Part shown: piece by piece, positions 9,191 through 11,962 of the stretch
Position numbering within the stretch: position 1 is the first letter of the stretch
Layout of the letters: the number at the start of each line of letters is the position of its first letter
DNA from: Archaeoglobus profundus DSM 5631
GTDB taxonomy: Archaea > Halobacteriota > Archaeoglobi > Archaeoglobales > Archaeoglobaceae
Length of the DNA: 64,000 nucleotides
Assembly (NCBI RefSeq): GCF_000025285.1
Contig: NC_013741.1
Span: forward strand, 806,001-870,000
Direction: 5' to 3'
Made by a program: the position numbers and the translations under genes
Notes under the pieces: generated by a model
What the model was told of the DNA's origin: nothing
Databases searched by the model: none
The model's input: the letters and a program-made list of their open reading frames with translations, nothing else

Positions 9191-9303
9191 AGTACAGAAT
9201 TAAGGTCTTGGGAAAAGAGTACGAAGTTGAAGTCGATGAAGTTTATAAGAATGTTTTTGAAGTAGTTGTCAACGGTAAGAGGGCAATAATTAAATTGGAG
9301 TGA
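9187..9303 (+). CDS. Truncated biotin-carrier-like protein (38 residues, no biotinyl domain)
   Basis: Starts at GTG (overlapping GTGA) with MKYRIKVLGKEYEVEVDEVY and stops after 38 residues. This resembles the first segment of methylmalonyl-CoA decarboxylase gamma / BCCP proteins (typically KxKVxVNGKEYEVEVEE). The linker and the biotin-accepting domain with its MKM lysine are absent. The stop codon lies directly against the 3' end of the convergent tRNA-Arg gene, so the missing part may have been lost when sequences were joined there. Confidence 0.6.
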   Translation: MKYRIKVLGKEYEVEVDEVYKNVFEVVVNGKRAIIKLE

Positions 9304-9377
9304 TGCCCCCGCCGGGATTCGAACCCGGGTCTGGGAGTCCGCAGCCCCCAAGGATATCCAAGCTACCCCACGGGGGC
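9304..9377 (-). tRNA. tRNA-Arg (GCG)
   Basis: Complete cloverleaf on the minus strand. Acceptor GCCCCCG/CGGGGGC, anticodon loop CTGCGGA (anticodon GCG, reads CGC/CGU), T arm CCGGG-TTCGAAT-CCCGG, discriminator A. CCA is not encoded. No intron. Confidence 0.93.
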
Positions 9378-9388
9378 ATTAAAAAAAG

Positions 9389-9511
9389 TTAGAACTTCTT
9401 TTCTCTCTTTCTTCTTCTCTTCGGTCTATCGTTCAGCAATTCCTCGAACTCCTCATCCGTTACGGGTCTCAAGTTTTCTAGCTCTTCCTTCAATCTCCTC
9501 TCCCACTTCAT
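9389..9511 (-). CDS. Small highly charged conserved-looking protein (40 residues)
   Basis: Reads MKWERRLKEELENLRPVTDE, then EFEELLND, ending in a basic RPKRRRKREKKF tail. A TATA-like GTTATATACC on the minus strand (about 9538-9547) lies roughly 30 bp upstream of the ATG. The acidic helix plus basic tail suggests a nucleic-acid- or ribosome-associated small protein. I do not recognise a family, and the function is unknown. Confidence 0.55.
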   Translation of the reverse strand: MKWERRLKEELENLRPVTDEEFEELLNDRPKRRRKREKKF

Positions 9512-9582
9512 CCCTAAACCTTAAGCTTTCAAAGGGGGTATATAACTTTAATGCAGTAGGCATAATCCCATTCTATGAGAAC

Positions 9583-9600
9583 GTTCCCACAAAATGGAAC
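9583..9600. promoter_or_regulatory. Inverted repeat GTTCC-N8-GGAAC, possible operator of the aro operon
   Basis: A perfect 5-bp inverted repeat with an 8-bp spacer ends 11 bp before the TATA box of the aro transcript. This position is typical of archaeal activator or repressor sites next to BRE/TATA. The binding factor is unknown. Confidence 0.4.
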
Positions 9601-9611
9601 AAATCGAAATG

Positions 9612-9619
9612 TTTAAATA
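9612..9619 (+). promoter_or_regulatory. TATA box of the aro leader transcript
   Basis: TTTAAATA preceded by a purine-rich BRE-like CGAAATG. The expected transcription start (22-27 bp downstream of the box centre) is about 9638-9643, which places the leader-peptide ATG (9643) at or within a few nucleotides of the 5' end. Confidence 0.65.
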
Positions 9620-9642
9620 TTGCCTTAGCTAGTCGATTCGTG

Positions 9643-9705
9643 ATGCATAAGATGAAAATACCCTATAACCCTTGGAGCTTTTTCTTCTTTAGCTTTAGCT
9701 TCTAA
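9643..9705 (+). CDS. Aromatic-rich leader peptide upstream of aroA'-aroB'
   Basis: A 20-codon ORF reading MHKMKIPYNP-WSFFFFSFSF, then TAA. Eight of 20 residues are aromatic: Tyr8, Trp11, Phe13-16, Phe18 and Phe20. It starts almost at the predicted mRNA 5' end, 25-30 bp below a good TATA box, and ends 50 nt before the gene for the first enzyme of archaeal aromatic amino acid synthesis. This composition and place are those of bacterial attenuator leader peptides (pheL, trpL, pheA leaders). The product itself is probably not functional; its translation is the likely signal. Confidence 0.65.
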   Translation: MHKMKIPYNPWSFFFFSFSF

Positions 9706-9750
9706 TACGTGCAAGGTCTTTCCTAAATCTCTACAACCTTCGGGGGTGTT
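9670..9750 (+). promoter_or_regulatory. Putative attenuator with three mutually exclusive pairings ahead of aroA'
   Basis: Segment 1, CCTTG (9670-9674, Pro-Trp codons), can pair with segment 2, CAAGG (9712-9716, after the stop). Segment 2 as AAGGT (9713-9717) can instead pair with segment 3, ACCTT (9736-9740). Segment 3 (ACC, 9736-9738) can pair with GGT (9745-9747), masking the GGGGGTG Shine-Dalgarno of aroA' and closing on a CTTCGG turn. A ribosome stalled on the Phe run would cover segment 1 and favour 2:3; one at the stop would cover segment 2 and favour the masked form. The stems are short (3-5 bp), so this is an inference. Confidence 0.45.
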
Positions 9751-9755
9751 TTGCC

Positions 9756-10514
9756 ATGTCCAAAAAAAGGCGCTTGAAAAGGGTTTTGCGGGATGGAAGG
9801 ACTGTGATAGTACCGATGGATCACGGAGTATCCAAACCAATAGCGGGGCTTGAGGAGGTTGAGAGAATTCTTAAGGAGATAGATGGAATTGTCGATGCGG
9901 TGGTTCTGCATAAGGGGGTAGCTAAAAGGGTTGATTACGTGAACGAAATGGATATGGGGCTTATAGTCCATCTGAGTGCTTCAACATGCTTGGTTGAACC
10001 AAACGAAAAGGTGTTGGTTACTTCAGTTGAGAAGGCTATAAAGCTTGGTGCCGATGCCGTAAGCATTCACGTAAACTTGGGGAGCAAAACCGAAAGAGAG
10101 CAGTTGAGAGATTTGGGGATAGTTTCGGAGATATGTGACGATTGGGGCATTCCGTTACTTGCAATGGTTTACGCGAGGGGGGAAGGCTTGAACGAAAGGG
10201 ATCCCGAGCTAGTCAAGCACTGCGTTAGAGTTGCGTATGAGCTTGGAGCAGATATTGTGAAAACTGCTTACACAGGAAGTGTAGAAAGCTTTGCAGAGGT
10301 CGTGGAACTTGCAGAAATCCCAGTGGTAATCGCCGGGGGTAGCAAGAAGAGCGAGTTTGAAATTTTGAGAGAAGTAGCTGAAGCCATGAATGCCGGTGCA
10401 AGTGGAGTTGCAATAGGTAGAAACGTTTTCCAGCATAGAAATCCGAAGGCCATGGCAAAGGCTTTAAGGATGATAGTTCATGAAAATGCGAGCTTGAAAG
10501 AGGTGATAATTTGA
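9756..10514 (+). CDS. aroA': 2-amino-3,7-dideoxy-D-threo-hept-6-ulosonate (ADTH) synthase
   Basis: 252 residues of the DhnA/class I aldolase family. The archaeal enzyme condenses a 6-deoxy-5-ketofructose phosphate-derived unit with aspartate semialdehyde, the first committed step of the alternative archaeal route to dehydroquinate. MDHG (21-24) and Lys169 in IVKTAYTG, the Schiff-base lysine, are present, as is the C-terminal phosphate-binding GVAIGRNVF. The next gene, DHQ synthase II, overlaps by 4 nt, which supports this role over a glycolytic FBP aldolase. GGGGGTG at 9742-9748 is the ribosome-binding site, possibly masked by a leader hairpin. Confidence 0.9.
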   Translation: MSKKRRLKRVLRDGRTVIVPMDHGVSKPIAGLEEVERILKEIDGIVDAVVLHKGVAKRVDYVNEMDMGLIVHLSASTCLVEPNEKVLVTSVEKAIKLGADAVSIHVNLGSKTEREQLRDLGIVSEICDDWGIPLLAMVYARGEGLNERDPELVKHCVRVAYELGADIVKTAYTGSVESFAEVVELAEIPVVIAGGSKKSEFEILREVAEAMNAGASGVAIGRNVFQHRNPKAMAKALRMIVHENASLKEVII

Positions 10515-11515
10515 AGGAGATTTGGCTATTAGCTTTGGGTGAGAACTGGGAAGATGAGAAGGAGAAGATAAAGGATGCCATTGAAATAGGATTTACGGGA
10601 GTTGTCGTCAGGAAAGAGTTCGAAGATTTAGCTAAAAAGCTTGGAAGGATAAAGGTCTTTGGGGTTGAGGATGGCGTTGGAGAGAACGCGATATTCTTTG
10701 AGATAGAATCAGCTGAGGATCAGAACAAAGCTGTTGAGCTTTCTGAAAAGTTCGATTATCTCTTCCTGAAGTTTTCAGATTGGAAGGTAATACCGCTCGA
10801 AAACCTCATAGCGATGAAGAAGAAAGCCAAGCTTATAGCTATAGTGAACGATTTAGATGAGGCAAAGGTAGTTCTGACCACGCTTGAGAAAGGTGCAGAT
10901 GGAATTGCTATCGCAGAGGATAGGAGAGAAATGATGAGAAGGTATTACGAGCTCGCAAGTGGAGAAAAAGGCTTTGTGGAGCTTAAGAGGGCTAAGATAG
11001 TTGAGATAAAGCCCCTTGGAGTTGGAGACAGAGTTTGTATTGACACCGTGACGTTGATGGGTGTTGGAGAAGGAATGCTCGTTGGCAATAGAGCTGGTTT
11101 CATGTTTTTAGTTGCGAGTGAGAGTGAAGAGAGCGAGTATGTTTCATCAAGACCCTTTAGAGTAAATGCTGGGAGCGTTAATGCATACATAAAGGTAGGA
11201 GATAGGACAAAGTACTTGGCTGAGCTTAAGGCGGGAGATTCAGTTGAAATAGTCAACTACAAGGGAGAAACAAGGAGAAGCTATGTCGGGAGAGTTAAGA
11301 TAGAGAAAAGACCGTTAATATTGATTAGGGCTGTTGCCAACGGAGAAGAAGGAACTGTAATACTTCAGAATGCGGAGACGATTAAATTAGTTAATCCAGA
11401 GGGTAAGCACGTTTCAGTTGCGAATCTAAAGGAGGGAGACGAGGTTTTGGTTTGGATCGGAGAAAAGGCAAGACACTTCGGCGTAGGTATAGACGAATTT
11501 ATAATTGAGCGTTGA
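10511..11515 (+). CDS. aroB': 3-dehydroquinate synthase II
   Basis: 334 residues, the archaeal type II enzyme that oxidatively deaminates and cyclises ADTH to 3-dehydroquinate. It matches the family along its whole length, including the region VKIEKRPLILIRA near 263-275 and a C-terminus ending FIIER. The start is TTG inside the overlap TTGA with the aroA' stop; GAGGTGAT lies just upstream, so the unusual start is well supported and implies coupled translation. Confidence 0.92.
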   Translation: MKEIWLLALGENWEDEKEKIKDAIEIGFTGVVVRKEFEDLAKKLGRIKVFGVEDGVGENAIFFEIESAEDQNKAVELSEKFDYLFLKFSDWKVIPLENLIAMKKKAKLIAIVNDLDEAKVVLTTLEKGADGIAIAEDRREMMRRYYELASGEKGFVELKRAKIVEIKPLGVGDRVCIDTVTLMGVGEGMLVGNRAGFMFLVASESEESEYVSSRPFRVNAGSVNAYIKVGDRTKYLAELKAGDSVEIVNYKGETRRSYVGRVKIEKRPLILIRAVANGEEGTVILQNAETIKLVNPEGKHVSVANLKEGDEVLVWIGEKARHFGVGIDEFIIER

Positions 11516-11571
11516 TGTTCATCTTTTTCGGAGTAAAAGATTTATATCGATATCCTACCCTATTTCATTGT

Positions 11572-11645
11572 GGGCTCGTAGCTCAGCCAGGTAGAGCAAC
11601 GGGCTTTTAACCCGTTGGTCGCGGGTTCAAATCCCGTCGAGCCCG
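11572..11645 (+). tRNA. tRNA-Lys (TTT)
   Basis: Acceptor GGGCTCG/CGAGCCC, anticodon loop CTTTTAA (TTT), T arm GCGGG-TTCAAAT-CCCGT, discriminator G. No intron and no CCA. TATA TTTATATC lies at about 11540-11547. rpoH starts only 26 nt downstream with no separate promoter visible, so tRNA and RNA polymerase genes may share a transcript. Confidence 0.95.
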
Positions 11646-11671
11646 CTCCCACCAAAATTTGGTGATGAACT

Positions 11672-11962
11672 ATGAAGATAAGGCTTCAGGATCATATCTT
11701 GGTTCCAAAGCATGAACTACTGAGTGAAGAAGAGAAGGAAGAAGTACTTAAGCTACTTGGCATAAAACCCGAACAGTTACCGAAAATAAGAGTAGATGAC
11801 CCAATAGCCAAAGAGATAGGGGCTAAGGTGGGAGATATTGTTAGGATAATAAGGGAAAGCCCTACTGCTGGCGTTAGTATTACATACAGATATGTCGTCC
11901 CCCCTGTTGTTGTTAAGGTTGAGGAGGAGAGAGTTGAGGAGGAAGAAGAGGAAGAAGAGTGA
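11672..11962 (+). CDS. rpoH: DNA-directed RNA polymerase subunit H, with acidic tail
   Basis: 96 residues; archaeal RpoH is usually about 75-85. The body from DHILVPKHELLSEEE (7-21) to SITYRYVVPP (69-78) is the Rpb5 C-terminal-like domain, which contacts downstream DNA in the polymerase. The extra C-terminus is almost pure glutamate (EEERVEEEEEEEE). GGTGAT precedes the ATG. First gene of the RNA polymerase operon; it overlaps the longest rpoB2 frame by 4 nt. Confidence 0.95.
   Translation: MKIRLQDHILVPKHELLSEEEKEEVLKLLGIKPEQLPKIRVDDPIAKEIGAKVGDIVRIIRESPTAGVSITYRYVVPPVVVKVEEERVEEEEEEEE

Follow-up and report, generated by a model that had tools for sequence, protein, structure and literature searches.

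The window, by which we mean the whole 64,000-nucleotide stretch analyzed here, derives from a genome of 1,563,423 bases in two contigs and contains the aroA' and aroB' genes preceded by a short open reading frame (ORF) rich in aromatic codons. The features of this unit are as follows.

9612–9619, forward strand: TATA box TTTAAATA of the leader–aroA'B' promoter, with a similar box at 46 of 46 orthologous loci
9643–9705, forward strand: leader ORF MHKMKIPYNPWSFFFFSFSF with its stop codon, predicted to be leaderless; start, frame, aromatic-rich C-terminus and stop kept at 46 of 46 loci
9664–9702, forward strand: run of putative regulatory codons, Tyr8 (9664–9666), Trp11 (9673–9675), Phe13–16 (9679–9690), Phe18 (9694–9696) and Phe20 (9700–9702), the last abutting the stop
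9679–9690, forward strand: U-rich tract TTTTTCTTCTTT made of Phe codons, with one U5 run; a candidate FttA/aCPSF1 recognition tract as judged from sequence
9742–9748, forward strand: aroA' Shine-Dalgarno (SD) sequence GGGGGTG, 14 nt before aroA'
9756–10514, forward strand: aroA', 2-amino-3,7-dideoxy-D-threo-hept-6-ulosonate synthase (ADH synthase; TIGR01949, 359 bits against a cut-off of 299)
10511–11515, forward strand: aroB', 3-dehydroquinate synthase II (DHQ synthase II; PF01959, 425 bits; NF002627 equivalog)

The leader ORF reads directly from the ATG at 9643 to the TAA at 9703–9705 and comprises 20 codons; the aromatic residues and the 50-nt gap between its stop and the aroA' ATG at 9756 are as an earlier note on this DNA had described. 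The same note identified the downstream genes as aroA' and aroB', which the profile matches bear out; the two overlap by 4 nt. The 31-nt spacing from the TATA box to the leader ATG is consistent with a leaderless start and agrees with the claim that the ORF lies at the 5' end of the transcript, with a predicted transcription start at about 9640–9643. As a chance estimate, three of the 1157 short ORFs of the window carry at least seven F/W/Y among their last 14 residues. Transfer RNA genes flank the unit (9304–9377 on the reverse strand and 11572–11645 on the forward strand), and an RNA polymerase gene cluster with a split rpoB comes after it.

A protein search over 57 genomes yielded 46 in which the aroA' orthologue came with its upstream region; they represent 14 genera, in two families, of the order Archaeoglobales. 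An aromatic-rich ORF precedes aroA' at all 46, so that the comparison proposed in the earlier note finds the ORF in close relatives throughout. The leader ORF is therefore real, being conserved at every orthologous locus, and the clustering of product codons that marks trp/phe-type attenuators is found in every leader. The leaders comprise 20–34 codons with 6–13 F/W/Y each, all three residues are present in 42 of the 46, and a TATA-like box always begins 28–32 nt before the leader ATG. F/W/Y make up 37% of leader codons versus 9.3% in the proteins of the window. What is kept is composition and position, not sequence: mean column identity is 28%, and only M1 and one F are invariant.

This arrangement appears restricted to aroA' among the genes we compared. 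No leader precedes the fructose-bisphosphate-aldolase-like paralogues of ADH synthase (L129, L130, L119, L222 and L223), none was seen in the 110 nt upstream of a truncated extra aroA' copy (L117), and no convincing aromatic leader lies upstream of the trpE, pheA or hisG loci. The word TTYRGCTTYRGC was tried as a probe for further leaders and rejected as too common. In most Archaeoglobales a fused tyrA–chorismate mutase–pheA gene lies in the aroA' operon, about 3.4 kb downstream, and a sensor of Phe, Trp and Tyr therefore fits the product. The fused gene lies outside the operon in G000, G016 and G038, with no aromatic leader of its own seen there (loci compared: G000:C1:1307502-1308023 and the G001 operon in L168).

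We consider it likely, on the basis of these sequence comparisons, that the ORF encodes a leader peptide on which ribosomes stall, so that the charging of tRNA-Phe, tRNA-Tyr and tRNA-Trp is sensed and aroA'B' controlled. F/W/Y content maintained ahead of pathway entry genes without sequence conservation suits a charged-tRNA sensor. Ribosomes would initiate at the 5'-terminal AUG and read the Phe/Tyr/Trp codon run up to the stop. When charged tRNA-Phe, tRNA-Tyr or tRNA-Trp is scarce, the ribosome would stall within the aromatic run and expression of aroA'B', which encode the entry enzymes for all three amino acids, would rise; with the tRNAs charged, ribosomes would clear the leader and expression would drop. 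We infer translation of the ORF, stalling, the direction of the response and the read-out in Archaeoglobales; that starvation raises aroA', rather than lowers it, is a matter of logic. A point against this reading is the variable distance from the leader stop to aroA', which ranges from 25 nt (in G016) to 104 nt and is 50–104 nt at most loci.

The earlier note had further described three mutually exclusive stems of 3–5 bp (CCTTG/CAAGG, AAGGT/ACCTT and ACC/GGT) following the 1:2, 2:3 and 3:4 logic of bacterial attenuators. These do exist as letters in the window, but they were not seen, as judged by eye, in the nearest relative, G016. The segment 9643–9765 folds at -20.1 kcal/mol versus -21.0 kcal/mol for shuffled sequences (z = +0.28); 121 of 200 shuffles equalled or exceeded it in stability, and the 46 Archaeoglobales loci give a median z of -0.38, six of them reaching p ≤ 0.05. 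The stems are best treated as chance, because the fold equals that of shuffles both in the window and across the 46 loci. The covariation that the note had suggested looking for was likewise absent: in 33 Archaeoglobales loci no co-evolved stem joins the post-stop segment to the aroA' SD (swap test, p = 0.44), and so no SD-burying hairpin of the erm type was found in this order. Mutually exclusive hairpins of the trp/phe type were found neither in the window nor elsewhere in Archaeoglobales, and Rfam covariance models (T-box and others) run over 9300–11800 returned only tRNAs above threshold. A ribosome-footprint accessibility model at 65 °C gave an unpaired SD probability of 0.32 in the free leader and 0.32–0.38 with a stalled ribosome in the window species, hardly any change; in G016 it rose from 0.35 to about 0.6 upon stalling, and other loci were mixed. 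With no alternative structure in Archaeoglobales, there is therefore no structural link from stalling to aroA' in the window species. The interpretation of the earlier note thus stands for an aromatic leader tied to aroA'B' and for control of aroA' by ribosome position, and falls for the specific stems.

The stem logic does reappear in five other families. In a phylum-wide sample, aromatic leaders precede the homologous aro operon in families f6, f13, f22, f23 and f24, which we presume from their gene content to be Methanomicrobiales. The operon behind them, as inspected in f24, comprises two aroA'-like genes, aroB', tyrA and pheA. In one relative (G120), the leader ends in AFVFTFTFYYYFSWCCGFLYVF and three 15-nt segments are able to pair in two exclusive ways. 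In f6, f22 and f23, as well as much of f13 and part of f24, an arm that begins a few nucleotides after the leader stop pairs with the aroA' SD, for example ACTCAGCAG with CTGCTGAGGGG in L315 and TCCCGGCAG with CTGCCGAGGGG in L316. The stem sequence varies between lineages and the pairing is maintained. Each post-stop arm pairs with its own SD at a mean of -14.3 kcal/mol versus -11.5 kcal/mol with those of other loci (p = 5e-5 from 20,000 swaps among a chosen set of 21 loci, an optimistic value as the lineages are related). Shuffling of single loci gave a weak signal, with SD pairing reaching p ≤ 0.05 at 4 of 32; we regard the swap comparison as the more informative of the two. The read-out in these families looks like translational attenuation, in which the post-stop hairpin would bury the aroA' SD unless a ribosome halted close to the stop prevented this.

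In f5, f11, f16, f20, f25 and f17 no leader was seen upstream of the genes examined, which are not confirmed as operon starts; the best-matching paralogue is not always the first gene of the operon, which masks leaders when only the region upstream of that paralogue is inspected. The methanogen-like leaders open with a conserved block, ATGTGTGGTGAATGTTTTTTCGCCGGTGAATGTTTTTATC, that is open in two frames (L224 at about 2455–2510; L260–L267), one reading MCGECFFAGECFY from an ATG and the other VVNVFSPVNVFI and running into the aromatic stretch; joining them would take either overlapping starts or frameshifting at TTTTTTC. Separately, a short ORF of the form MP[VL][DE]W (ATGCCGGTGGAATGG and variants), with Trp always at codon 5, lies at or overlaps the trpE start at 13 of 14 methanogen-like loci (L330–L342) and may be a Trp leader or merely a conserved ribosome site.

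Codon choice bears on the read-out in Archaeoglobales. Their leaders use TTT at 71% and TAT at 72%, versus 50% and 35% in the ordinary genes found at these loci (p = 5e-7 and 5e-9, optimistic values given that the loci are related), with 169 U-ending codons observed versus 109 expected. The 62 leaders of other families use TTT at 72% and TAT at 88%, versus 33% for each in a control gene set that includes some antisense ORFs. The bias thus also occurs in families where TTC and TAC are otherwise the favoured codons, which ties it to leader function and not to the composition of one genome. It need not all reflect slow decoding, as selection for a U-rich RNA tract could contribute.

We weighed transcription attenuation by FttA/aCPSF1, in line with the U-tract terminator that the earlier note had raised as an alternative. 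It would keep the leader sensor and change its read-out, with the U-rich Phe and Tyr codons doubling as the recognition tract. A stalled ribosome would cover the tract and aroA' would be transcribed; a departed ribosome would expose it and transcription would end before aroA'. FttA terminators favour U-rich RNA 30–36 nt behind the RNA 3' end (PMC11616081) and aCPSF1 requires two U4 tracts (PMC8716108), which the preference for U-ending codons and the presence of at least two U4 tracts in 26 of the 46 leaders would serve; a hairpin is unnecessary, matching the shuffle-like folding of the window and the 46 loci. Counted from sequence, U4 tracts number 0–4 per leader and 0–3 per intergenic region. 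However, AGC is the usual codon between two aromatic codons (91 cases), although it makes up 31% of Ser codons in ordinary genes, and it lowers the number of U4 tracts from the 117 expected if Ser were recoded by genomic usage to 76, as if they were avoided; AGC may therefore serve to break U runs. The window leader moreover has a single U5 run and that of G016 none, and the U-ending bias is equally present where an SD hairpin exists. As an account of the locus we regard FttA attenuation as possible and somewhat doubtful. Within the leader-sensor reading, two Archaeoglobales read-outs appear about equally plausible to us, U-tract/FttA termination and a ribosome that occupies the ribosome site with no stable hairpin involved; if anything, we lean slightly towards occupancy.

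A second SD lies 1–18 nt past the leader stop in some genera and could drive a decoy cistron (ORF2) running across the aroA' ribosome site. Stalling on the final aromatic codons would place a ribosome over this SD, leaving ORF2 unread and aroA' free. At 29 of the 46 loci a second SD is followed 2–11 nt on by a start codon and a short ORF that ends between -34 and +19 of aroA'. Neither the stop nor the peptide of ORF2 is conserved, though, both second SD and ORF2 are missing from g1 (the genus of the window), g4, g11, g12, g14 and g15, and ORF2 could instead promote aroA' by termination-reinitiation, which is the wrong direction. Such a relay is unlikely, even in the genera that have it.

It is very unlikely that the leader ORF senses no amino acids and only boosts aroA' translation through reinitiation, as has been proposed in general terms for the leader genes of bacteria (PMC4833913). 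The gap to aroA' is short at some loci, such as G016, but most lie beyond the 30–40 nt past which archaeal translational coupling fades (PMC12548453), and the compositionally maintained F/W/Y content and the restriction of the leader to aroA' would be left unexplained. Less credible still, by a small margin, is an element in the DNA or RNA that a regulator binds and whose reading frame is fortuitous: AGC and U-ending codons do build a repeated TTTAGC word, yet start, frame and stop are maintained at all loci, TTT, TGG and TAT interchange, and an Rfam-scale search gave no family. Least probable of all is a functional small protein, for although the ORF is retained everywhere, it is conserved in composition only and matches no protein family.

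In bacteria, attenuation mediated by ribosomes is textbook knowledge. Like the bacterial trpL, pheL and hisL attenuators, whose biased regulatory codons have been discussed (PMC1183508), the aroA' leader is a short ORF rich in product codons directly ahead of its operon; unlike them, it is archaeal, predicted to be leaderless and alternates Ser/Gly codons with aromatic ones, and in Archaeoglobales it has neither competing hairpins nor a hairpin terminator. As in erm translational attenuation of the ermC/ermCL type (PMC10219788), a hairpin after the leader buries the main-gene SD in f6, f13, f22, f23 and part of f24, and a held ribosome would free it. The sensor differs in being an aromatic codon run, not an antibiotic-dependent arrest peptide, and Archaeoglobales have no such hairpin. 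The U-rich RNA of the leader resembles that involved in FttA/aCPSF1 termination and polarity, which translation is thought to oppose (PMC11616081). We file the aroA' leader as a variant of leader-peptide attenuation outside the hairpin-based trp/phe class, because mutually exclusive hairpins, which define that class structurally, were looked for here and not found.

We found no description of leader-peptide-controlled FttA/aCPSF1 termination in the accessible literature, and no archaeal amino-acid leader-peptide attenuator in the full-text literature searched, whose coverage leaves out most subscription journals; a 2023 paper states in general terms that upstream ORFs act by attenuation in archaea. 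The broader proposal is that leader-peptide attenuation responding to aromatic amino acids exists in archaea and that the hyperthermophilic Archaeoglobales carry it out without a stable hairpin, the ribosome itself being the switch that masks either a ribosome site or a U-rich tract recognized by FttA; we advance it tentatively, at slightly less than an even chance. If true, coupled transcription and translation would be used for regulation of the same operon in two archaeal groups, which raises the question of how attenuation works at about 80 °C without hairpins. The aroA' leader would provide a defined reporter for the relation between FttA and translation.

Among bacteria, Desulfobacterota included, aroA'-type genes can likewise follow F/Y-rich short ORFs, for example MTQNFSGSYYSYFWYYFYNTGLPGVR in L107. 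These bacterial ORFs sit 110–150 nt upstream and were seen at L078, L089, L093, L098, L101, L103 and L106–L108, a further example being LGMVQAGFAFYYYFYFPWP.
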